Positions 16,779-28,204 of a DNA stretch of 64,000 nucleotides are shown here, one piece after another. Below the pieces are notes generated by a model. The model saw only the letters and a list, made by a program, of their open reading frames with translations. It made no database searches and was not told where the DNA came from. The position numbers and the translations under genes were made by a program. This DNA is from Ensifer canadensis (GTDB lineage Bacteria > Pseudomonadota > Alphaproteobacteria > Rhizobiales > Rhizobiaceae): assembly GCF_017488845.2 (NCBI RefSeq), contig NZ_CP083371.1:1240001-1304000 (forward strand), written 5' to 3'. The stretch's first letter is position 1. Every line of letters starts with the position of its first letter.

Positions 16779-17690
16779 CTATTTCAGAAAGCCGTTCTTC
16801 TTCAGGAAGTCTTCGGCAACCGTCTTGGCCGGTTCACCACCGACTTGGACGCGGCCATTCAACTCCTGCAGTGTCACCAGATCGAGTTTCTCGAAGACCG
16901 GCTTCAGCAGGGACTCGATCTGAGGATTTTCCTTCAGCACTGCCTCGCGAATGATCGGAGCCGGCTGGTAGATCGGCTGGACTGCCTTGTCGTCTTCCAA
17001 CACCACGAGGCCGGAGGGGGCGATGCCGCCATCGGTGCCGTAGACCATCGCGGCATTGGCACCATTCGTCTGGTTAGCAGCCGCAGCGATTGTCGCTGCC
17101 GTATCGCCACCCGAAAGCGTGATCAGCTGCTCCGGCTTCAACGTGAAGGCGTAGGTCGTCTGGAATGCGGGAAGCGCTGCTGCCGAGTTGACGAATTCGG
17201 ACGATGCGGCGAGCACGATGTTTCCGCCGCCGGCAACATACTTGCCGAAATCGGACAACGTCGCCAGCTTGTTGGCTTCAGCGACGTCCTTGCGCAGCCC
17301 GATTGCCCAGGTGTTGTTGGCCGGCGATGGCGTCAGCCAGACAATCTTGTTGGCGTCGTAGTCGAGCTTCTTGGCGGACTCGTAGGCCTTCGCCGCGTCC
17401 TTCCAGACCGGGTCATCGGCCTTCTCGAAGAAGAAGGCGGCATTGCCGGTGTACTCCGGGTAGATGTCGATCTCGCCGGCGGTGATCGCCTTGCGCACCA
17501 CCGGTGTAGCACCGAGCTGTACGCGGTCTACAGTTTTGATATTATTGGCATTCAACACAGCAAGGATGATGTTGCCGAGCACACCGCCTTCTGTATCGAT
17601 CTTGGAGGACACCACGACGTCGGCGTTGGCGGCGGCTGCAGTGAGTGTCAAGGCAAAGGCTGTCCCGATAAGCAGTTTGGTCAGGCGCAT
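16779..17690 (-). CDS. Glycine-betaine/choline-type ABC substrate-binding protein (OsmF/YehZ-like)
   Basis: A 303-residue periplasmic protein with a Sec signal peptide (MRLTKLLIGTAFALTLTAAA, cleavage near ANADVV). The mature part has the OpuAC pattern VVVSSKIDTEGGVLGNIIL and EIDIYPEYTGNAA, typical of the OpuCC/OsmF/ProX group that binds quaternary amines through aromatic residues. It is the first gene of its operon. The substrate could be glycine betaine, choline or carnitine; OsmF itself binds betaine only weakly, so assignment stays open. Confidence 0.92.
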   Translation of the reverse strand: MRLTKLLIGTAFALTLTAAAANADVVVSSKIDTEGGVLGNIILAVLNANNIKTVDRVQLGATPVVRKAITAGEIDIYPEYTGNAAFFFEKADDPVWKDAAKAYESAKKLDYDANKIVWLTPSPANNTWAIGLRKDVAEANKLATLSDFGKYVAGGGNIVLAASSEFVNSAAALPAFQTTYAFTLKPEQLITLSGGDTAATIAAAANQTNGANAAMVYGTDGGIAPSGLVVLEDDKAVQPIYQPAPIIREAVLKENPQIESLLKPVFEKLDLVTLQELNGRVQVGGEPAKTVAEDFLKKNGFLK

Positions 17691-18493: not shown

Positions 18494-19866
18494 CAAAACA
18501 TTTCGACGCCATCATCATCGGCGCAGGCCAGGCGGGACCATCATTGGCCGGTCGTCTGGCCGCGGCCGGCAAGGCCGTGGCGCTTATCGAGCGCAAGCTC
18601 TTCGGCGGCACCTGCGTCAACACCGGCTGCATGCCGACCAAGGCGATGGTCGCCAGCGCCTACGCCGTGCACATGGCGCGTCGCGGTGCCGATTTCGGCG
18701 TGACAACCGGCCCGGTTTCGGTCGATTTCAAGCGCGTCATGGCGCGCAAGGACAAGGTGAGGACCGACGCCCGCACGGGCGTTGAAAACTGGCTCAAGGG
18801 GATGGAAAACTGCACCGTCATCGAAGGTCATGCCCAATTTGAGGACCCGCACACGATCCGGGTGGGCGAAGAAATCCTCACTGCCGACCAGATTTTCCTG
18901 AACACCGGCGGTCGGGCGGCAGTACCGGATTTTCCCGGTGTCGACGACGTGCCTTTTCTCACCAATGTGTCGATGATGGACCAGGATGTTCTTCCAAGGC
19001 ATCTGATCATCGTCGGCGGCAGTTATATCGGCCTTGAATTCGCCCAGATGTTCCGCCGCTTTGGCTCCGAGGTAACGGTGATCGAGAAGGGCCCGAAGCT
19101 GATTGCCCGCGAAGACCCAGATGTCTCAGATGCGGTCCTTGCGATCCTGGAGAAGGAGGGCATCCGGTTTCGGCTCAACGCCGAATGCATTCGTTTCGCC
19201 AGGCGAGGCGACGATGTCGTCGCCGGCGTCGATTGCACCTCGGGCGCGCCGGAGGTCACCGGCTCACATCTGCTGCTTGCGACGGGCCGCCGGCCGAACA
19301 CCGACGATCTCGGGCTCGACAGGGCGGGCGTAAAGACCGACGCGCACGGCTATATTGAGGTCGATGACGCCTTGCGGACCAACGTGCCGCACATCTTCGC
19401 CATGGGAGATTGCAACGGCCGCGGCGCCTTCACCCACACTGCCTATAACGACTTCGAGATCGTCGCCGCCAACCTGCTCGACGGCGAGCAGCGGCGCGTC
19501 AGCGACCGCATCTCCACCTATGCGCTCTATATCGACCCGCCGCTCGGGCGCGCCGGCATGAGCGAGACCGAGGCGCGCAAGACCGGCCGCAAGATTGCCG
19601 TCGGTAGGAGGCCGATGACCCGGGTCGGCCGGGCGGTCGAAAAAGGCGAGACCGAGGGATTCATGAAGGTTGTCGTCGACGCCGACAGCAAGGAGATCCT
19701 CGGCGCATCGATCCTGGGCACCGGCGGCGACGAAGCGGTTCAGAGCATTCTCGACGTCATGTACGCCAAGAAGCCCTACACCACGATCACCCATGCGGTG
19801 CACATTCACCCGACGGTTTCGGAGCTTATCCCGACGGTCTTCGGGGATCTCGCGCCGGCAAACTGA
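18490..19866 (+). CDS. FAD-dependent pyridine nucleotide-disulfide oxidoreductase (mercuric-reductase-like)
   Basis: A 458-residue class-I flavoprotein disulfide reductase. FAD binding: IIIGAGQAGPSLAGRLA (8-24). Redox-active disulfide: C42 and C47 in GGTCVNTGCMPTKAM. NAD(P) site: IIVGGSYIGLEFAQMF; second FAD motif: ATNVPHIFAMGDCNG-like segment with AMGD. The C-terminal HIHPTVSEL supplies the usual catalytic His of the partner subunit. It lacks the N-terminal HMA domain and the C-terminal Cys pair of true MerA, so Hg(II) reduction is unlikely; it belongs to the MerA-like group of unknown substrate. Translationally coupled to the DUF4126 gene. Confidence 0.9.
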   Translation: MTKHFDAIIIGAGQAGPSLAGRLAAAGKAVALIERKLFGGTCVNTGCMPTKAMVASAYAVHMARRGADFGVTTGPVSVDFKRVMARKDKVRTDARTGVENWLKGMENCTVIEGHAQFEDPHTIRVGEEILTADQIFLNTGGRAAVPDFPGVDDVPFLTNVSMMDQDVLPRHLIIVGGSYIGLEFAQMFRRFGSEVTVIEKGPKLIAREDPDVSDAVLAILEKEGIRFRLNAECIRFARRGDDVVAGVDCTSGAPEVTGSHLLLATGRRPNTDDLGLDRAGVKTDAHGYIEVDDALRTNVPHIFAMGDCNGRGAFTHTAYNDFEIVAANLLDGEQRRVSDRISTYALYIDPPLGRAGMSETEARKTGRKIAVGRRPMTRVGRAVEKGETEGFMKVVVDADSKEILGASILGTGGDEAVQSILDVMYAKKPYTTITHAVHIHPTVSELIPTVFGDLAPAN

Positions 19867-19887
19867 CGGTCGGCAAGCCGACCGTCA
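19864..19887. terminator. Stem-loop between convergent genes
   Basis: TGACGGTCGGC (19864-19874) and GCCGACCGTCA (19877-19887) form a perfect inverted repeat that starts on the flavoprotein stop codon and ends 9 bp before the stop of the convergent M20 gene. No strong U-run follows, but the position fits a shared terminator. Confidence 0.6.
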
Positions 19888-19896
19888 GGTGTTGGT

Positions 19897-21048
19897 TCAG
19901 ACCAGCGCAGAGCGTGCGAGATGGTAGAAATACATCGCGCCACGTTCGAGGATTTCGTCGTTGAAGTCGTAGCGCGTGGTGTGGAGCCCGCTGCTCTCAC
20001 CATTGCCAATCAGCACGTAGGCGCCGGGAACCTCTTCGAGCAGGAAGGAAAAGTCCTCGCTGCCCATCAACGGCTGGGCGAGTTCGACGAACGCGCCTTC
20101 ACCGAATTTCTCGCTGATCACGGCGCGCGCCTCTGCGACCGCCTCCGCGTCGTTGATGGTCGCGGGATAACCGACCTGCCAGCCGAAAGTAACATCGGCA
20201 TTGAAGCTCTGCGCCTGGAAACGCGCAATCTGCTCGACGCGCTCCTGCAACTGCTTTCGCACGGCAGGATCGGTTGCCCGCATGCTGATCTCCAGCACTG
20301 CGGTGTCGGGAATGATGTTGGACGCCGAGCCCGATTGGAACGAACCGACGGTCACGACCGAGGGCTGATGCGGCGAGACGTTGCGCGACACGAGCGTCTG
20401 CAGCGCCATGACGACGCTTGAGCCGACGACCACCGGATCGACCGTCAGTTCCGGCTGCGCCCCATGGCCGCCTTTGCCCCTGATCGTCAGCGTCAGCACA
20501 TCGATCGAGGCGGCCATGGCACCGGCGCGCGTCGAGAAGGTACCGGCCGGCAGACCTGGCCAGTTGTGAAGCGCAAAGACGCGCTCGCAGGGAAAGCGCT
20601 TGAACAGGCCGTCCTCGATCATCAGCTTGCCGCCGCCGAAATTCTCCTCGGCGGGCTGGAAGATCAGATGCACGGTTCCGTTGAAACTCGCATCCTGCGA
20701 CAGCGCCCAGGCGGCGCCCAGCAGCATGCTCGTGTGACCGTCATGGCCGCAGGCATGCATCGCGCCGGGATGCTGGCTCTGATAGGCGAGTCCTGTTTCT
20801 TCCTGCATCGGCAGCGCATCCATGTCGGCACGAAAGCCGATCGACCGGTTGCTGTTGCCGCGCTTCAGTGTCGCGACGATGCCGGTCGTTGCAAGCCCGC
20901 GCGTCACCTCGAAGCCCCAGGACTGCAGCAGGCCGGCGACGAATTCCGAGGTCTTCACTTCAGACAGGCCGATCTCCGGCATCTCGTGCAGCTTGTGGCG
21001 GATATTGACGAGTTCAGGCAGGAATTTCGACAGGATCACGTCGCGCAT
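19897..21048 (-). CDS. M20 family amidohydrolase (hippurate/N-acyl-amino-acid hydrolase type)
   Basis: A 383-residue zinc amidohydrolase of the M20/HipO group. Metal-site motifs are HACGHDGHTSMLLGAAW and GSEDFSFLLEEVPGAY; an NxPGLPAGTF-type region precedes the dimerisation domain. Such enzymes remove acyl groups from amino acids (hippurate, N-acetyl or indole-acetyl conjugates). Start set at MRDVILSKFLPELVNIRHKL, with GAGGAGAACACC upstream; the longer frame overlaps the ATPase gene. As the last gene of the DDAH/CtlX/ornithine-cyclodeaminase operon it probably deacylates an imported arginine or ornithine conjugate, which is inference. Confidence 0.9.
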   Translation of the reverse strand: MRDVILSKFLPELVNIRHKLHEMPEIGLSEVKTSEFVAGLLQSWGFEVTRGLATTGIVATLKRGNSNRSIGFRADMDALPMQEETGLAYQSQHPGAMHACGHDGHTSMLLGAAWALSQDASFNGTVHLIFQPAEENFGGGKLMIEDGLFKRFPCERVFALHNWPGLPAGTFSTRAGAMAASIDVLTLTIRGKGGHGAQPELTVDPVVVGSSVVMALQTLVSRNVSPHQPSVVTVGSFQSGSASNIIPDTAVLEISMRATDPAVRKQLQERVEQIARFQAQSFNADVTFGWQVGYPATINDAEAVAEARAVISEKFGEGAFVELAQPLMGSEDFSFLLEEVPGAYVLIGNGESSGLHTTRYDFNDEILERGAMYFYHLARSALV

Positions 21049-21058
21049 GGTGTTCTCC

Positions 21059-21826
21059 TCAAGCCATCTGCAGGAACTGGCGCAGGCGCGCCGACTTCGG
21101 GTCACGCATGACCTGCGACGGGGCGCCGCGTTCTTCAACGAGCCCCTTGTGAAGGAAGATGACTTCGCTGGAGATGTCGCGCGCCAGCGACATTTCATGC
21201 GTCACCATCACCATGGTGCGCCCCTCCTCCGCCAGTTTCTTGATGACCAGCAGCACCTCGTTGACGAGTTCCGGGTCCAGCGCCGATGTCGGCTCGTCGA
21301 AGAGCATCACATCGGGTTTCATCGCCAAAGCCCGCGCGATCGCTGCGCGTTGCTGCTGGCCGCCCGAAAGCTGGTTGGGATAGTGGTCGCGCTTCGGCGT
21401 GATGCCGACCTTCTCCATCAGCACCTCGGCCTCGCCGACGGCGTCCTTGCGCGTCATGCCAAGCACATGCATCGGCCCCTCGATGATGTTTTCGAGGATG
21501 GTCTTGTGGGACCAGAGATTGAAGCTCTGGAACACCATGCCGAGGCGGGTGCGGATATGCTCGAGCTGGCGCTTGTCGGCGGCAACGAGCTTGCCGTCCT
21601 TGCCCTTCAACGTCCTGATCACTTCGCCCGATACCGAGATTTCGCCCTCGTCGGGCGTCTCGAGATAGTTGATGCAGCGCAGCAGCGTGCTTTTGCCAGA
21701 GCCGCTGCTGCCGATCAGCGAAATGACGTCGCCGGATTTCGCTTCGAACGAAACACCCTTGAGTACCTCGACCGAGCCGAAGCTCTTGTGGATGTTCTTC
21801 ACTGACAGTGCGGTTGCGACCATCAT
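21059..21826 (-). CDS. Polar amino-acid ABC transporter ATP-binding protein (HisP/OccP type)
   Basis: A 255-residue ATPase of the polar amino-acid uptake family. Walker [10 protein letters not shown], signature [15 protein letters not shown], Walker [18 protein letters not shown]-loop [15 protein letters not shown] ribosome-binding site precedes two adjacent ATG codons. It serves the two permeases and the family-3 binding protein upstream. Within the operon it lies 10 bp before the M20 gene. Confidence 0.95.
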
Positions 21827-21860
21827 CGTTCCTCCCGTGGCGCCTCTGCGCGCCGTGTAC

Positions 21861-22562
21861 CTATGCCTTCGCCGTGCGGTAGCGGGTCAGCCGCTTTTCG
21901 ACGACGTTCATCACTCGCGTCAGAATGAAGACGACGGTGAAATAGATGATGCCGGCCGCGATCAACGGCTCGAAGATCAACAGCGACTGACGCTGCAGCA
22001 TGCGCGCGGTGCCCATCACCTCGAGAATGGTGATCGTCGAGGCGAGCGAGGTCGTCTTCAAAAGGATGATCAGATCGCCCGTCAGAACCGGCAAGCAGGA
22101 TCGCAGCGCCTGCGGCAGCGTGATCCGCCTGAGTATCATCGACGATCGCATGCCGATCGATTTTGCGGCCTCGATCTGCCCACGCGGGATCGCCTTGATC
22201 GCGCCGCGGATGACTTCGGCATTGTAGGCCGCCTGGTTGAGGCTGAGCGCGAAGATCGCGTACCACAGGCCGTCGCGAAGATACGGCCACAGGAAGCTGT
22301 GGCGAACCCAGGTTCCCGGCAGGACCTGCCCGAGGCCGTAATAGATGAGATAAATCTGCACGAGTAGCGGCGTACCGCGAAACGCGAAGGTGAAGACATA
22401 GGCCGGCATCGATAGGATGCGTCGGGTCGAAAGCCGGGCGAGCGCGACAAACGTGCCTATGACCAGACCGAAGACGCCGGCAACGGCGGTCAACAGCAGC
22501 GTCAGCGGGGTCGCCTTGATGAGCGCCGGCAAGAAGCCGACAACGTTGGAGATCGTTTCCAT
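21861..22562 (-). CDS. Polar amino-acid ABC transporter permease (HisM type)
   Basis: A 233-residue permease with about five hydrophobic segments. FAFRGTPLLVQIYLIYYGLG is the usual segment after helix 2 and IPRGQIEAAKSIGMRSSMIL the ATPase-coupling loop of the His/Glu/Gln/Arg/opine subfamily. ATG at 22562 overlaps the stop of the preceding permease by one base (TGATG), so they are coupled. It pairs with the HisQ-type partner to form the channel. Confidence 0.94.
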   Translation of the reverse strand: METISNVVGFLPALIKATPLTLLLTAVAGVFGLVIGTFVALARLSTRRILSMPAYVFTFAFRGTPLLVQIYLIYYGLGQVLPGTWVRHSFLWPYLRDGLWYAIFALSLNQAAYNAEVIRGAIKAIPRGQIEAAKSIGMRSSMILRRITLPQALRSCLPVLTGDLIILLKTTSLASTITILEVMGTARMLQRQSLLIFEPLIAAGIIYFTVVFILTRVMNVVEKRLTRYRTAKA

Positions 22563-23275
22563 CAATTGTGCCCCCGGTTAAGGCGGCGTTCGATCTGCGC
22601 GATCACCAAGGCTGAGACAAGCGTAATCAGCAGGAACAGGACGGCCGTCAACCCGTAGAAGAAAATGTATTGCTTGGTGCCCGCGGCAGCGCGGTAGCCG
22701 GTATAGAGCAACTCGCTGAACGAGCCGAGCACGCTGATGATGGCGCTTTCCTTGGTGATGGAAAGCCAGAGATTGCCCATGCCGGGCACGGCGTGGCGCA
22801 TCATCTGCGGCAGCACGATACGGGTGAAGACCTTGCGTGGCCGCATGCCGATCGAAACCGCAGCCTCGATCTGCCCGGGCGGAACGGCGAGGAAGGCCGA
22901 ACGCAGCACTTCTGTCATGAACGCGCCGGAGACGAAGGCAAGCGCGATGATTGCCGCCCAGAACGAGCTGAACTGAAACGTCTCGGCGACGAGACCAAAA
23001 TGCTTCAGCAGCCGCTCAGCGCCGCTCGCCACCGAGAAATACAGAAGCAGGATAACCAGGAGTTCGGGAAGCGAACGCACGACGGTCGTGTAGATATCGG
23101 CCAGAAGACGTGGCAAGCGGTGCTTCGACAGCTTGCCGGCAGCGCCCAGCAGCCCGAAGACGACCGCGACTGCATAGGCGACCACGGATACCTGCAGCGT
23201 CATCACCAGGCCCCAGGCGAAATCATCGCCCCAGCCCTCGCCGCCCCAGGCAAGCAATTGCCAGTAATACTCCAT
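22562..23275 (-). CDS. Polar amino-acid ABC transporter permease (HisQ type)
   Basis: A 237-residue permease beginning MEYYWQLLAWGGEGWGDDFA, a start pattern common to HisQ/OccQ proteins. VRSLPELLVILLLYFS and the coupling loop VPPGQIEAAVSIGMRPRKVF mark the family. It lies 124 bp after the binding-protein gene, with a hairpin in that gap. Confidence 0.94.
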   Translation of the reverse strand: MEYYWQLLAWGGEGWGDDFAWGLVMTLQVSVVAYAVAVVFGLLGAAGKLSKHRLPRLLADIYTTVVRSLPELLVILLLYFSVASGAERLLKHFGLVAETFQFSSFWAAIIALAFVSGAFMTEVLRSAFLAVPPGQIEAAVSIGMRPRKVFTRIVLPQMMRHAVPGMGNLWLSITKESAIISVLGSFSELLYTGYRAAAGTKQYIFFYGLTAVLFLLITLVSALVIAQIERRLNRGHN

Positions 23276-23354
23276 CCGTCGCTACCTGTTCCCGATTGGT
23301 GTCGTCAGCCAAAGGCTGCGATGATGCCCCGGACGCTGCGGTCCGTTTGGCGAT

Positions 23355-23386
23355 CGAGGGCGAAGGGCCTCGGCCCGTCGCCCTCG
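23355..23386. repeat. GC hairpin between binding-protein and permease genes
   Basis: CGAGGGCGA (23355-23363) pairs with TCGCCCTCG (23378-23386). The inner 14 bases can pair further. No U-run follows on the leftward transcript, so it probably protects the 3' end of the binding-protein message rather than stopping transcription completely. Confidence 0.55.
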
Positions 23387-23399
23387 AAAACGTCCGTTA

Positions 23400-24200
23400 T
23401 CACTTCTTGCCGAAGATCCACTTGTCGACGAGCGTCTTGATCTGCCCATCCTTTTCGAGAGCGGCGAGGCCGGCATTGACCTTCTCGAGGTTCGCAGCGT
23501 CGCCCTTGCGCACCGCATAGGCAACACCTTCGCCGAGTACGGCGTTCTTGGGAACCTCGACCTTGATTTCGTAGTCGGCGCCGTCAGGCGACTTCAGGAA
23601 CGTCTGGATGTAGAGGTCCGGGATCAGAACGTAGTCGACGCGGCCGGCGACGAGATCGGCGACGGAGTTGTCGGCGGTATCGTAGCTCTTGGCCTCGGCG
23701 CCCGGCAGATACTTGGCGACGTAGGCCGATTGCACGCTCGACGTCTGAACGCCGATGATCTTGCCCTCGACGCTGGCCGGATCGATGATCTGGCCACCGC
23801 CGTCGGCGGCGTCGGTCGTCTTGATCTCGCTGGTGTCGGACTTGGCGCCGACGAAGGACGTGCCTTCGGTGTAGTAAGGCGTCGAGAAGTCGACGACCTT
23901 GCGGCGCTCATCGGTGATCGAGAACGCACCGATGATGAAATCGACCTTGTTTTCCTTCAGCGACGGGATGAGGCCATCCCACGCCATCTGGTTGATGTCG
24001 CACTTCACGGCCATCTTTTCGCAGAGGGCACGCGACAGGTCGGCTTCAAGGCCTTCCCATTCGCCGCCGGCGTTGACCTGCGTGAACGGCATGTAGGGCT
24101 CGGGCGTCATGCCCAGACGCAGCGTGTCCTCAGCGAAAGCAGCGCTTGCCGCCATGGTGAGGGCGATCCCCGCGAACAGGGCCGACTTGAAAGTTCTCAT
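23400..24200 (-). CDS. Amino-acid ABC substrate-binding protein (family 3, Lys/Arg/Orn/opine-like)
   Basis: A 266-residue periplasmic binding protein with a signal peptide (MRTFKSALFAGIALTMAASA, cut near AFAEDT). Family-3 motifs are seen: LRLGMTPEPYMPFT at the mature N-terminus, WDGLIPSLKENKVDFIIGAF, TDERRKVVDFSTPYY, and the IIGVQTSSVQSAY ligand loop. A good GGAGGAAAC ribosome-binding site precedes the ATG. It sits 30 bp after the DDAH gene, so the ligand is expected to be a guanidino or ureido amino acid such as methylarginine, arginine or citrulline; this is contextual inference. Confidence 0.93.
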   Translation of the reverse strand: MRTFKSALFAGIALTMAASAAFAEDTLRLGMTPEPYMPFTQVNAGGEWEGLEADLSRALCEKMAVKCDINQMAWDGLIPSLKENKVDFIIGAFSITDERRKVVDFSTPYYTEGTSFVGAKSDTSEIKTTDAADGGGQIIDPASVEGKIIGVQTSSVQSAYVAKYLPGAEAKSYDTADNSVADLVAGRVDYVLIPDLYIQTFLKSPDGADYEIKVEVPKNAVLGEGVAYAVRKGDAANLEKVNAGLAALEKDGQIKTLVDKWIFGKK

Positions 24201-24230
24201 GATGTTTCCTCCGCGAATATTATGTCTGGA

Positions 24231-25034
24231 TCAGAGCGTGTTGCTGAACCAGCGCAGCGACATGCAGGACAGGCCGGCGTCGATCTTGCCGATTTCAGTC
24301 GTCTTCATCGGCACGACCTTGTAGCCGAGCTTGTCGAGCATCTCGATCGTGCGCGGGAAGTCGGAGCCAACCATGACGACGTCGTTGACGCGCAGCGCAT
24401 TGGCCGCCGGCTCTTCGCCTTCGGGAATAATGACCTGCTTGAAGCGGTCGAACACGCCGGACTTGGCAAGACGAGCGGTCGAGAGCACGGTTTCCTCATC
24501 GAGCAGCGAGCAATCGGTCTTGAAGTGCAATACGCCTTCCGGTGTGGTGACGATCTCGCTCTTGCGGCCGAGCTTGTCGAGGCACGCCTGCAGCGCTTCG
24601 GCGCCGACCTTGTCGGTGCGGGCGGAAAGACCGATCATCACGCTTTCGCGGGTCGTCAGCACGTCGCCGCCATCGGCAAGGCCGGTGCCCGGCAGATCGA
24701 GAACCGTCTCGAACATCGCGCGAAGCGTCGGCTCGATCTCGATGGTTTCCTTGACGCGGGTGGCAGCACCCGGACGCAGGAGGATCGCGCCTTCGGTGAA
24801 CACCAGCGCCGGATCTTCGACGAAGATCGAATCCGGGAAGGCTTCGAGCGCCGGAAGCACGGTGACCTTGACGCCCGCATCCTTCATCGCAGCGATGTAG
24901 GTATCGTGCTCGGCCTTCACGCCCTCATAGGTCGGATTGCCACGGTCATCGGCACGCAGGCCGTTGACGACGGTGGTCGAGGGCGTGCGGACGATGATGT
25001 TGTTGAAATTGTAGACGGGGCGTGCTTGCGACAT
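24231..25034 (-). CDS. ddaH: Dimethylarginine dimethylaminohydrolase (DDAH) family protein
   Basis: A 267-residue member of the guanidino-group-modifying superfamily. DDAH hydrolyses N-omega-methylated arginine to citrulline plus (di)methylamine by a covalent thiouronium intermediate. FPDSIFVEDPALVF (66-79) forms the substrate-carboxylate site, His170 (GVLHFKTD) and Cys257 (GLSCMSL) are the catalytic pair; the acidic residue that precedes them falls in DGGD (121-124). Length matches bacterial DDAH (about 255-270). Start at MSQARPVYNFNNIIVRTP, 31 bp after the CtlX gene; a longer frame upstream belongs to CtlX shadow sequence. Arginine deiminase is a less likely alternative, because ADI is much longer. 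Confidence 0.88.
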   Translation of the reverse strand: MSQARPVYNFNNIIVRTPSTTVVNGLRADDRGNPTYEGVKAEHDTYIAAMKDAGVKVTVLPALEAFPDSIFVEDPALVFTEGAILLRPGAATRVKETIEIEPTLRAMFETVLDLPGTGLADGGDVLTTRESVMIGLSARTDKVGAEALQACLDKLGRKSEIVTTPEGVLHFKTDCSLLDEETVLSTARLAKSGVFDRFKQVIIPEGEEPAANALRVNDVVMVGSDFPRTIEMLDKLGYKVVPMKTTEIGKIDAGLSCMSLRWFSNTL

Positions 25035-25065
25035 TTGTAGTACCTTTGGCTTGGATGAGGTGCTT

Positions 25066-26037
25066 CTATCGATCGGATGTGGCGGCGTAAAGCTTTTGCG
25101 TACCGGCGGGTTCTCTGCGTGACAAATGCACGCCGGCGAGCATGCAGCGCACGGAGCCGCCGGCAAGCTCGATGGTCGGCACGTCGAAGGCGAGCACGCG
25201 CGCCGAAACCTCGATCGCCTTGACCTGGTCCGGCCGAAGCGACGCAAGCGCACGCGCCGACATCACGACGACACGGCCATCGGCGCCGTCGAGTTCGATC
25301 GCGTTGCCGGCAAAATTCTCGATCTGATCGATCGTGAGATCGATGACCTGCCGGCCCGTTTCCTCCAGCCGCGCGCAAATTTCCTGTCGCCTTGCCGCGT
25401 CGGGGATCATGCTGGTGCCGATCAGCGCGAAATCCGTACCGATGCACATCAGCACATTGGTATGGTAGATCGAGTTGCCGTTGCGGTCGACCGCACCAAA
25501 CACCATCGGCTCGAAGTTGAAGTGGGTGCAGAAGCGCTCCAGCGCCACCTCGTTGGTGCGGTTCGACCGGGCCGCATAGGCCACGCGACCGATATGGTCG
25601 AGCACCATGGCGCCGGTGCCTTCAAGATAGACGCCGTCCTTTTCGAGGCCTGAGTAGTCGATCACGTCCTGGACGCGATACTCGTTCTTGAGCATCTCGA
25701 TGATGTCGGCGCGGCGTTCGCTCTGACGGCTTTCCGAATACATCGGATAGATGGCCACATGTCCGCCCGAATGGGTGGAGAACCAGTTGTTCGGGAACAC
25801 CGAGTCCGGACGGGTCATCGTCTCGTCTTCGAACAGGTGGACGGCGACGCCGGCGGCCGACAGGCCATCAGCCATGCGCGTCACTTCATCAAAAGCGGCA
25901 GTTGCGATCGCCGAGGGCTTGCGCGCCTCGTCAGTCGACTGGAAGGCATTGTCCTTGGCCGTCATCGGGTTCGGGCCGAAATGGTGCGGACGGATCATCA
26001 CGACACCCTTCGGCGCCTGTACGGACAGTCTCTTCAT
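25066..26037 (-). CDS. ctlX: CtlX-type citrulline hydrolase (amidinotransferase/deiminase fold)
   Basis: A 323-residue protein of the same pentein fold as DDAH but a different family. The N-terminal MIRPHHFGPNPMTAKDNAFQ is the CtlX hallmark. Catalytic residues should be Glu139 (LEGTGAM), His192 (YHTNVLM) and Cys298 (GGSVRCMLAGVHL). CtlX proteins are reported to convert citrulline to ornithine, carbon dioxide and ammonia. Start chosen at MKRLSVQAPKGVV; the stop of the ornithine cyclodeaminase gene is 1 bp upstream, so coupling is tight. It would join DDAH (citrulline source) to ornithine cyclodeaminase (ornithine sink). Confidence 0.85.
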   Translation of the reverse strand: MKRLSVQAPKGVVMIRPHHFGPNPMTAKDNAFQSTDEARKPSAIATAAFDEVTRMADGLSAAGVAVHLFEDETMTRPDSVFPNNWFSTHSGGHVAIYPMYSESRQSERRADIIEMLKNEYRVQDVIDYSGLEKDGVYLEGTGAMVLDHIGRVAYAARSNRTNEVALERFCTHFNFEPMVFGAVDRNGNSIYHTNVLMCIGTDFALIGTSMIPDAARRQEICARLEETGRQVIDLTIDQIENFAGNAIELDGADGRVVVMSARALASLRPDQVKAIEVSARVLAFDVPTIELAGGSVRCMLAGVHLSRREPAGTQKLYAATSDR

Positions 26038-26038
26038 C

Positions 26039-27088
26039 TCAGGCAACGCTCCGCTCGGCAATGACAGCGGCCGCCGGCTGCTTGAACAGTCCGTAGAGAT
26101 CACGCGGATGCTCCGGCTGCGTCGTCAGGTCGAGCTCGGTGTAGAAGGCCGTGCCCTGGATCCTGTCACGAAGGAAGCGCAGCGCCGAAAAGTCTTCCGT
26201 GGCAAAGCCGACGGAATCAAAGATGGTGATCTGCGAGCCCAACCGGCGGCCTTCAGCCTCGCCGGCAATCACGCGCCAGAGTTCGATCACCGGGAAGTCC
26301 GGCGCCATCTGCTGGATTTCTCCTTCGATCCGCGTCTGCTCCGGATATTCGACGAAGACATCGGCACGACGCAGGATATCGCCCTGCAGTTCGGTCTTGC
26401 CGGGGCAGTCGCCCCCTACGGCGTTGATGTGCACGCCGGCGCCGACCATATTGTCGGAGAGGATCGTCGCGTTGCGCTTGTCGGCCGTCACCGTCGTGAT
26501 GATGTCGGCGCCAGCAACGGCCTCTTCTGCGGTCTTGGCGACAACGATATCGAAATCCATGTCGGCGAGGTTCTTCAGGAACTTGTCCGCCGCTTCGATG
26601 TCGATATCGAACACCTGCAGGCGCTTGATCCCGAGCAGGGCCCGGAAGGCGAGCGCCTGGAATTCCGACTGCGCGCCAAGCCCGATGATCGCCATCGAGC
26701 GGGCATCGGGGCGAGCCAGGTACTTTGCGGCCAATGCAGAGGTCGCCGCCGTGCGCAGACCCGTCATGATCGTCATCTCGGAGACGAGGCAGGGATAACC
26801 AGTGCTGACGTCCGAGAGAACACCGAAGGCCGTCACAGTCTGCAAGCCAACATTCGGATTCTTCGGGTGGCCGTTGACGTATTTGAAGCCGTAATGCTCG
26901 CCGTCGGACGTCGGCATCAATTCGATGACCCCCGTCTTCGAATGGCTCGCCAGCCGCGGGGTTTTCTCAAAAGCGTTCCACCTGCGGAAATCGTCTTCGA
27001 TATATTCCGCAAGACCCAACAGGAACGTTTCAATGCCGATCGATTTGACCAGCTCGATTACGTTGCCGACACCGACATACTGAACCAC
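26039..27088 (-). CDS. Ornithine cyclodeaminase
   Basis: A 349-residue NAD-dependent enzyme of the OCD/mu-crystallin family that turns L-ornithine into L-proline and ammonia. Visible: RVASH-type substrate site (PRLASHSKTGVIELMPTSD), FKYVNGHP, NAD-binding GLGAQSEFQALAF, TTVTADKRNATI, VGGDCPGKTEL and the catalytic Asp in FDSVGFATEDF. A GTG start at 27088 with GGAGA seven bases upstream gives an N-terminus that aligns without gap to Pseudomonas ornithine cyclodeaminase and the same total length. An ATG at 27169 would overlap the TTGCGCAA operator and add AT-rich, non-family sequence. First gene of the leftward methylarginine operon, divergent from an Lrp regulator. Confidence 0.92.
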   Translation of the reverse strand: MVQYVGVGNVIELVKSIGIETFLLGLAEYIEDDFRRWNAFEKTPRLASHSKTGVIELMPTSDGEHYGFKYVNGHPKNPNVGLQTVTAFGVLSDVSTGYPCLVSEMTIMTGLRTAATSALAAKYLARPDARSMAIIGLGAQSEFQALAFRALLGIKRLQVFDIDIEAADKFLKNLADMDFDIVVAKTAEEAVAGADIITTVTADKRNATILSDNMVGAGVHINAVGGDCPGKTELQGDILRRADVFVEYPEQTRIEGEIQQMAPDFPVIELWRVIAGEAEGRRLGSQITIFDSVGFATEDFSALRFLRDRIQGTAFYTELDLTTQPEHPRDLYGLFKQPAAAVIAERSVA

Positions 27089-27158
27089 GATTTCATCTCC
27101 ATCGGGAAATTCGATGAGGTCAGCGTAGGCACGCAAGAAGCGAGTTGAAATTTTAAAC

Positions 27159-27188
27159 TTGCGCAACATCTTGCAAAAGATTGCGCAA
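27159..27188. promoter_or_regulatory. Candidate Lrp-type operator, two TTGCGCAA palindromes
   Basis: The perfect 8-bp palindrome TTGCGCAA occurs at 27159-27166 and 27181-27188, 22 bp apart, i.e. on the same face of the helix. It lies between the ornithine cyclodeaminase start and the divergent lrp-like gene. Phased palindromes in a divergent promoter are typical targets of Lrp/AsnC octamers, so this is probably the operator of the neighbouring regulator. The motif is seen; binding is inferred. Confidence 0.55.
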
Positions 27189-27215
27189 ATTGTACAACTC
27201 ATCTATAAGATTTTT

Positions 27216-27641
27216 ATGCATATCTTCGATGACCTCGATCACCAGCTTATCTCGCTTCTGCGAGAAGACGGCCGCGCGCCCTACTCCAAGGTCGCCTCGG
27301 TTCTCGGCATATCGCGTGCAACCGTACAGACGCGCATCGACCGGCTGCTGGAAACCGGGGCGGTGCTGGGCTTCACATTGCGCGTCCGCCAGGACTATGA
27401 CCAGCGCGCCATTCGGGCAATCATGATGATCGAGGTCAGCGGGCGCACGACCACAAAGGTGATCAAATTCCTTCGCGGCCTGCCCGAACTCTATGCTCTC
27501 CACACCACCAATGGCGCCTGGGACATGGTGGCCGAAATTCGCGCCAACAGCCTCAGCGACTTCGACCGCATCCTGCGCGAGGTCCGCGACGTCGAAGGCG
27601 TGCTCAACAGCGAGACGAGCATACTTCTCAGCACCATCTGA
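27216..27641 (+). CDS. Lrp/AsnC family transcriptional regulator
   Basis: A 141-residue Lrp-type regulator. The N-terminal HTH runs LDHQLISLLREDGRAPYSKV then GISRATVQTRIDRLLE; the C-terminal RAM/effector domain begins around residue 60 with FTLRVRQDY and ends in GVLNSETSILLS. Start is the ATG at 27216 (MHIFDDLDHQ). Divergent from the ornithine cyclodeaminase operon, it most likely activates it in response to ornithine or arginine, as in other rhizobial ornithine-cyclodeaminase systems. Confidence 0.93.
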   Translation: MHIFDDLDHQLISLLREDGRAPYSKVASVLGISRATVQTRIDRLLETGAVLGFTLRVRQDYDQRAIRAIMMIEVSGRTTTKVIKFLRGLPELYALHTTNGAWDMVAEIRANSLSDFDRILREVRDVEGVLNSETSILLSTI

Positions 27642-27676: not shown

Positions 27677-28204
27677 ATGACCGTGAGCCACATTCCCCAG
27701 ATCGATTACGACACCGCTTCCGACGCTATCCGTGCCGCCCACGACGAGGAGGTCCAAGTCCGTGGCCGCATGACCAATATGAAGCGTACCCTCTTGCATT
27801 CGCCGACGGCGCACCGGATCTATGCCGAGTGGTTCACGCTGCGGGAGGAGTTGCGGCCTGTTCTCGACGACCGGGCGATCTGGCTGCTCTCGCATGCAAT
27901 CTCCGAGGCGATGAAATCGCCGATCGCGATGGGCTTTTTCCGCCGCGCCTTCGCCAATTCCGGCGCCGACTTCCATTCCCTCGTGCCGACCGAGGACGAA
28001 CAGCGGCTGATCGATTTCGGCCGGGCGATCGTCGCCAATTCGAATGCGGTGCCGGCAGAGATCTGGGACGGGTTGAAAGCGCGCTATGACAATGCGGCGC
28101 TCGTCAACCTCGTGGCATTTGCGGGGATCATGGTCGCAACCGCGCTGTTCAACAACGTGGTCGAAGTCGAATTCGATAGGGAATTGGCGCCGTTCATGGA
28201 TTGA
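27677..28204 (+). CDS. AhpD-fold (carboxymuconolactone decarboxylase-like) protein
   Basis: A 175-residue, mostly helical protein starting MTVSHIPQIDYDT. The pattern with RMTNMKRTLLHSPTAHRIYAE and a hydrophobic C-terminal helix (LVNLVAFAGIMVATALFNNV) matches AhpD-fold/CMD-like hypothetical proteins. The C-x-x-C redox pair of true AhpD is absent, so peroxidase activity is not predicted. It lies 35 bp after lrp on the same strand and may share its transcript. Specific function unknown. Confidence 0.7.
   Translation: MTVSHIPQIDYDTASDAIRAAHDEEVQVRGRMTNMKRTLLHSPTAHRIYAEWFTLREELRPVLDDRAIWLLSHAISEAMKSPIAMGFFRRAFANSGADFHSLVPTEDEQRLIDFGRAIVANSNAVPAEIWDGLKARYDNAALVNLVAFAGIMVATALFNNVVEVEFDRELAPFMD

Follow-up and report, generated by a model that had tools for sequence, protein, structure and literature searches.

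A 64,000-nucleotide stretch of Ensifer canadensis DNA (contig NZ_CP083371.1, positions 1,240,001 to 1,304,000; hereafter the window, numbered from its first letter) contains eight leftward genes in series (19897-27088) and a divergent gene for an Lrp-family regulator. This operon probably catabolises N-omega-substituted arginine, most likely monomethylarginine (NMMA) and asymmetric dimethylarginine (ADMA). In the proposed route, a polar amino-acid ABC importer would bring in the modified arginine, and a DDAH-family enzyme would remove methylamine or dimethylamine to leave citrulline. CtlX, following the proposal made for its family from fitness data, would convert citrulline to ornithine and carbamate, the latter giving CO2 and ammonia, and ornithine cyclodeaminase (OCD) would carry out its family reaction, from ornithine to proline and ammonia, after which proline would enter central metabolism. 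An M20 amidohydrolase might, in addition, release this amino acid from acylated or short-peptide forms. Profile matches and refined starts confirm all nine genes in the order and on the strands claimed in a preliminary description of this DNA, as follows.

19897..21048, minus strand: M20D amidohydrolase, 383 aa (TIGR01891, 362.5 bits, cut-off 153.75)
21059..21826, minus strand: ABC ATPase, HisP-like (Pfam ABC_tran)
21861..22565, minus strand: ABC permease 2, ArtM/HisM-like (Pfam BPD_transp_1)
22562..23275, minus strand: ABC permease 1, HisQ/ArtQ-like (Pfam BPD_transp_1)
23400..24200, minus strand: periplasmic binding protein, polar amino-acid family (Pfam SBP_bac_3)
24231..25034, minus strand: DDAH-family guanidino hydrolase (ddaH), 267 aa (solved DDAH relatives; NF045658 below cut-off)
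25066..26037, minus strand: CtlX, putative citrullinase (citrulline to ornithine), 323 aa (NF046062, 417.3 bits, cut-off 334)
26039..27088, minus strand: ornithine cyclodeaminase (ocd), 349 aa (NF005762, 547 bits, cut-off 350)
27216..27641, plus strand: Lrp/AsnC-family regulator, 141 aa (Pfam AsnC_trans_reg and HTH_AsnC-type)

The active site of the DDAH-family enzyme

Among solved structures, the relatives of the window enzyme include P. aeruginosa DDAH (5e-51) and mammalian DDAH1 (4e-22). Cys257, His170, and Asp121 align with the catalytic residues of the solved DDAHs; Cys257 and His170 are invariant in an alignment of 39 sequences (the window enzyme and 38 relatives, including a P. aeruginosa ddaH), while the catalytic acid, Asp here and in mammalian DDAH1, is Glu in P. 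aeruginosa. Eight further residues (L26, D68, F71, E73, D74, R93, R139, and D252), which we take to be substrate-pocket positions, align with those of solved DDAHs and are invariant across the same 39 sequences. The account of DDAH1 in PMC10256801 gives its triad as Cys273, His172, and Asp126, matched here by Cys257, His170, and Asp121, and for the P. aeruginosa enzyme His162 is mentioned in passing in PMC6273216. Judging from family and active site, the window enzyme is a putative hydrolase of ADMA and NMMA that would yield citrulline.

CtlX and ornithine cyclodeaminase as the proposed downstream steps

Both enzymes that would act downstream of DDAH pass curated cut-offs. In CtlX, the FPNN and HTN motifs are invariant in 22 aligned sequences; as Price et al. 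2022 (PMC9007349) describe, these motifs replace FTRD and HLD of arginine deiminase (ADI). The same paper presents CtlX as a putative citrullinase on the grounds of fitness data, notes that its gene often lies beside ocd, and calls for biochemical studies. A search of the PDB by sequence gave no relative of CtlX at E 0.001. The simplest way to read these side-by-side enzymes, and the one put forward in the preliminary description, is that DDAH and CtlX act in series, since what a DDAH makes is what CtlX is proposed to use up.

The host genome carries two further OCD-family genes as well as four arginase-family genes whose matches span almost the full model, and fragments of others; the operon may thus not be the sole outlet for arginine or ornithine. 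In the same genome, an OCD-family gene other than that of the window lies beside two polar amino-acid permeases (G000:C5:23712-27762, where G000 is the host genome; locus L211), possibly an opine- or ornithine-use cluster. In two genomes (L058:3657-4655 and L072:8613-9596), a further protein of 327-332 aa weakly related to the window DDAH (24-28% identical) is encoded about 3 kb from ctlX.

The importer and the M20 amidohydrolase

The importer is complete by Pfam (SBP_bac_3, BPD_transp_1 twice, and ABC_tran) and can be assigned to the polar amino-acid ABC importers; both permeases pass the TIGR01726 domain model (66.2 and 58.0 bits, cut-off 42.2). No NCBIfam equivalog model is passed by the importer genes or the Lrp protein. 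The binding protein scores below the Lys/Arg/Orn-binding model TIGR01096 (192.8 bits, cut-off 256.35), and its best solved relatives include arginine-, nopaline-, octopine-, histidine-, and Lys/Arg/Orn-binding proteins. The key Asp of the Lys/Arg/Orn-binding protein, which would bear on a free alpha-amino group in the ligand, could not be placed in it with certainty.

The M20 protein passes the subfamily model TIGR01891 alone; the nearest equivalog, DoeB2, is not passed (355.9 bits, cut-off 550). Its solved relatives are an indole-3-acetic acid (IAA)-amino acid hydrolase homologue, YxeP, and N-alpha-acyl-glutamine aminoacylase. We rejected the M20 gene as proof of an acylated substrate because importer-adjacent M20D genes are common in the host genome (5 of 12).

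Two separable modules joined in one operon

To describe the surroundings of ddaH, we used loci from named genomes, the best 80 of at least 519 confirmed relatives; these are the closest relatives and are not independent of one another. Gene calls at the loci follow a simple codon-position rule and are partly wrong (opposite-strand shadows, some Brucella loci), and the eight loci on short contigs (L115, L123, L129, L148, L157, L158, L161, and L166) may hide partners. Direct locus counts are given in place of the flags on the tree rows, which under-report ocd because they require a match to cover 85% of a query that was too long.

In 35 of the 80 loci, ctlX lies directly upstream of ddaH on the same strand within 3 kb, with gaps of 35-141 bp between match ends. 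The binding-protein gene is next to ddaH in all 35, M20 is present in 29, and ocd in 19, and the whole set including ocd, lrp, and M20 occurs in 17 of the 80. This conserved adjacency of ctlX, ddaH, and the binding-protein gene suggests that the arrangement is more than chance. The operon-like arrangement claimed earlier is supported, and the gene order is shared by several genera, namely Ensifer, Rhizobium, environmental Brucella, and, with one case, Paracoccus. The set is not obligatory: 16 of the 35 loci showed no ocd within 4 kb. Among the 45 loci without ctlX, the binding-protein gene is near ddaH in 18 and M20 in 14.

Gene order indicates that the operon is a merger of two modules, lrp divergent from ocd-ctlX (citrulline use) and ddaH-importer-M20, since both modules also occur apart. 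Among 40 regions from the same order, the first is present without DDAH, and five Pleomorphomonas genomes have DDAH, the binding protein, permeases, and M20 without ctlX. In one genome (G037, locus L058), lrp stands divergent from ocd-ctlX-ddaH, with no binding-protein or permease match in its 19 kb. At the level of the order (297 genomes, DDAH counted at 45% identity or more), DDAH is found in 40 genomes, CtlX in 17, and both in 10, where 2.3 would be expected (Fisher p 6.5e-6, without correction for kinship). These 10 fall in four families, five from one and three from another. The identity threshold removed 7 of the 47 genomes with matches at E 1e-10, whose DDAH hits are only 25-30% identical; two of them (G265 and G207) have CtlX.

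ddaH alone in Sinorhizobium

In a DDAH tree of 80 rows built by a quick method, 17 Sinorhizobium/Ensifer rows with a lone ddaH group together in one clade (SH-aLRT 94), nested in a larger clade of 25 rows (98) to which the window DDAH and other operon-bearing rows also belong. The operon in the window has an OsmC gene on one side and a gene for a glycine-betaine-type binding protein on the other. Loci with a lone ddaH have flanking genes in common with the full operon: the gene at 16779 on one side and, in four of these loci, the gene at 27677 on the other. On pSymB of S. meliloti, the neighbours of ddaH are an OsmC gene and the gene for an ABC transporter binding protein. The simplest reading is that Sinorhizobium-type genomes have lost all but ddaH, as tree and flanks would suggest, with replacement or transfer as less simple alternatives. 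That ddaH was kept by itself may point to a separate function, e.g., detoxification or the return of citrulline to arginine.

The gene at 27677-28204 encodes a protein of 175 aa with no Pfam match; it neighbours the full operon in ten relatives and a lone ddaH in four. A lone ddaH beside one or both operon-flanking genes can be observed in L104, L105, L111, L124, L130, L141, and other Sinorhizobium loci, and in L171, at the site that in Ensifer adhaerens-type genomes holds the full operon.

A second cassette linked to DDAH

In seven of the 80 loci (L154, L160, L162, L165, L167, L168, and L170), DDAH is joined to an importer opposite TetR and aminotransferase genes, and the same arrangement is found on Phaeobacter and Sulfitobacter plasmids. 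The aminotransferase of this second cassette is of the PLP type, including those of L172, L173, and a copy in the host genome itself (L212:7679-15767). Six of the seven loci, all but L168, also encode a relative, 46-48% identical, of the 5-guanidino-2-oxopentanoate decarboxylase of Phaeobacter. Both decarboxylase proteins tested pass the curated model NF005712 (cut-off 500), the Phaeobacter one (L172) with 699 and the host's own (L212) with 793. In the host, the second cassette lies on contig C1 with an M20 gene and without DDAH; the window ddaH is the genome's only DDAH match at E 1e-10. In another alphaproteobacterium (L179), a decarboxylase relative 74% identical to that of Phaeobacter is encoded directly beside DDAH (46%).

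The M20 proteins linked to DDAH belong to more than one lineage: the full-length ones compared, those of L160, L165, and L168, group with an M20 elsewhere in the host genome (L201; support 99) and not with the M20 of the window. The L154 match is a piece of 67 residues, and no M20 match was found in L170, L172, or L173. These different lineages suggest that DDAH has met at least two importer-M20 cassettes. In our best reading, DDAH acts as an adaptor through which catabolic cassettes of the arginine type can take N-omega-substituted arginine; in the window, the route would end in proline. A broader proposal is possible, and we put it forward tentatively, doubting it more than we trust it: ddaH would be a portable entry adaptor, with alphaproteobacterial methylarginine systems assembled at least twice with different importer-M20 cassettes and downstream routes (to proline via citrulline and ornithine here; by transamination and decarboxylation in Brucellaceae and Rhodobacterales), and the M20 enzymes would free methylarginine from the acylated or peptide remains of decayed methylated proteins.

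Operon layout and the putative Lrp operator

The intergenic gaps are 1 bp between ocd and ctlX, 31 bp between ctlX and ddaH, 30 bp between ddaH and the binding-protein gene, 124 bp from there to permease 1, 34 bp between permease 2 and the ATPase gene, and 10 bp between the ATPase gene and M20, and the permease genes overlap by 4 bp. A single transcript across the eight genes is likely from this layout. For ocd, GTG at 27088 is the most likely start: the NCBIfam match sets in one residue further on, a GGAG precedes the codon by 8 bases, and at 10 of 15 Ensifer/Rhizobium loci the OCD frame extends to 347-349 aa at most. Refined starts for CtlX (26037), M20 (21048), and Lrp (ATG 27216) were also obtained, and the divergent gap between ocd and lrp is 127 bp. 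Three further sites were found.

19863..19888, strand not applicable: terminator-like stem of 11 pairs past the end of M20 (stem search)
27150..27177, minus strand: sigma70-like promoter TTTGCA-16-TAAAAT, 9/12 (motif scan, weak)
27159..27188, strand not applicable: possible Lrp operator of three boxes (exact pattern match)

The stem sits at the junction of M20 with a convergent gene and is notable for its length alone; terminator-like hits in the stretch number 9 against a shuffle mean of 6.6, a count that is uninformative.

The divergent Lrp-family protein is a putative regulator of the operon promoter. No NCBIfam Lrp model passes its cut-off on this protein, and a relative of it adjoins ctlX or ocd-ctlX in many genomes. 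Upstream of ocd, boxes of the form TTGCGCAA-N4-TTGCAA-N4-TTGCGCAA match exactly, with centres 11 bp apart; the pattern, which was picked after being seen, has a mean of 0.01 in shuffled windows. The boxes overlap the weak sigma70-like site for ocd, a type of site that occurs twice in 8 kb against a shuffle mean of 1.5. Helically phased binding is known Lrp behaviour, and boxes 11 bp apart over a promoter-like site would fit it. The full triple box recurs only in L093, with single boxes in most close Ensifer relatives and none in the distant relatives compared, so we rejected the boxes as a conserved element beyond close relatives.

The host genome measures 8.1 Mb and the contig bearing the operon 1.9 Mb. 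For these genes, its nearest named relatives are mostly Ensifer adhaerens-like strains, with DDAH 94-100% identical in loci L091-L099 and L101.

Evidence against the methylarginine route and competing explanations

Several observations weigh against a methylarginine operon. The DDAH-family protein fails all three dimethylargininase models of NCBIfam (NF045658, 215.8 bits against a cut-off of 450; NF045660, 138.8 against 340; NF045659, 24 against 300), and the gene identities of the preliminary description thus hold by curated cut-off for CtlX and OCD but not for DDAH. Human DDAH2 is reported inactive on ADMA in PMC10256801, so family membership is no proof of activity; DDAH2 itself lacks the catalytic cysteine, which the window enzyme has. 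CtlX mattered for growth not only on citrulline but also on ornithine, and biochemical proof of its activity is wanting by the authors' own statement (PMC9007349). In the host genome, 5 of the 12 M20D genes over the cut-off lie within about 2 kb of permeases of this type. None of the partners is present in 27 of the 80 DDAH loci, and of the 10 order-level genomes with both DDAH and CtlX, the host and G037 alone have them adjacent. The ctlX-ddaH adjacency was found in none of 11 other DDAH genomes in a class-level sample of 385 (E 1e-40, flanks of 1.5 kb) and in none of 12 other CtlX genomes in a phylum-level sample of 398 (E 1e-60; 10 inspected within 1.5 kb, two via the fetched order-level regions). 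The ddaH-ctlX-ocd order, whose conservation was proposed earlier as a check, is conserved among close relatives, for ctlX-ddaH more widely than for ocd, and the ctlX-ddaH pair is rare in the wider samples. Within the host's own family in the order sample, DDAH at 45% identity or more occurs in 1 of 13 genomes, that of the window itself, indicating a patchy gene.

The failure of the dimethylargininase cut-offs would also suit an enzyme acting on another modified arginine, such as N-hydroxyarginine, a plant or microbial antimetabolite, or an opine-like compound, taken as food or detoxified. The binding protein is about equally like nopaline-/octopine- and arginine-binding proteins, the M20 gene suggests a modified alpha-nitrogen or a peptide, and a lone ddaH in Sinorhizobium after apparent loss of the operon might be a detoxifier. 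However, the aligned active-site positions are DDAH-like and nothing found in the neighbourhood names another substrate, and we consider this explanation unlikely.

Arginine itself could be the substrate if the DDAH-family protein were a plain-arginine deiminase, in which case DDAH, CtlX, and OCD would form a split version of the cyanobacterial AgrE/ArgZ route from arginine through ornithine to proline, with no methylated compound involved. Deimination would likewise supply CtlX with citrulline, arginine- and opine-binding proteins are among the solved relatives of the importer, and a fused arginine dihydrolase-OCD enzyme exists in AgrE, work on which is listed among the references of PMC11659421. 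By score, however, the protein is of the DDAH type, the arginine deiminase (arcA) model giving it 37.2 bits, far below the 215.8 of NF045658, and at 267 aa it is short of the 408 positions of the arcA model. It carries FPDS and LHFKT in place of the ADI motifs FTRD and HLD (PMC9007349), a comparison limited to the motif strings, and the host already has its four near-full-length arginase-family genes. An arginine deiminase is thus quite improbable here. That the operon merely takes up and uses citrulline or arginine, with ddaH a passenger in some unrelated salvage role, is very improbable: ocd-ctlX without ddaH is widespread (in our own regions and in PMC9007349) and ddaH and ctlX occupy separate sites in 8 of the 10 sampled genomes having both, but in the 35 ctlX loci ddaH has ctlX on one side and the binding-protein gene on the other and is not at an end, and of the 45 loci that lack ctlX, 18 still have a binding-protein gene near ddaH.

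Discussion

The methylarginine operon proposed here touches on several known systems. With the ctlX-ocd citrulline utilisation of Price et al. 2022 (PMC9007349), it shares adjacent CtlX and OCD, the FPNN/HTN motifs, and the path from citrulline through ornithine to proline; the main text of that paper contains no occurrence of the terms DDAH, dimethylarginin-, methylarginine, or amidohydrolase. The ocd-ctlX half of the pathway in the preliminary description was thus already described as putative (PMC9007349), and the novelty is narrower than that description would suggest; what looks new is the joining of ocd-ctlX with ddaH-importer-M20. Our literature search, which covered titles and abstract starts of open-licence papers and sampled the broad queries, found no account of the operon and no work on rhizobia recycling released methylarginines as carbon and nitrogen.

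P. aeruginosa reportedly metabolises methylarginines through ddaR-ddaH, a system said to have been described by Lundgren et al. in 2017, which PMC8657755 cites. Like the window, that system has a DDAH-type enzyme for methylarginines, but in the P. aeruginosa record ddaH is found with ddaR and an amino-acid antiporter, and the annotation within 6 kb includes none of ctlX, ocd, an ABC importer, or M20. Cyanobacterial AgrE/ArgZ is an arginine dihydrolase, fused to OCD in AgrE; it shares with the window a hydrolase of the guanidino superfamily followed by OCD, and differs in that one dihydrolase acts on arginine, whereas two enzymes would act in series here. The AruI-like route of the arginine-transaminase type that accompanies DDAH in Phaeobacter, Sulfitobacter, Brucellaceae, and Paracoccus methylarcula shares the polar amino-acid importer and, in several cases, M20, and differs downstream in its aminotransferase, 5-guanidino-2-oxopentanoate decarboxylase, and TetR-type regulator.

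In eukaryotes, proteins are commonly modified by methylation of arginine. With an importer, two hydrolases predicted to act in series, and OCD in one operon, methylarginine recycling becomes testable in a soil bacterium, and the operon offers a genetic handle for assaying CtlX. The two arrangements, ctlX-ddaH on the one hand and ddaH with an aminotransferase and a decarboxylase on the other, may serve as genomic markers for the two routes.

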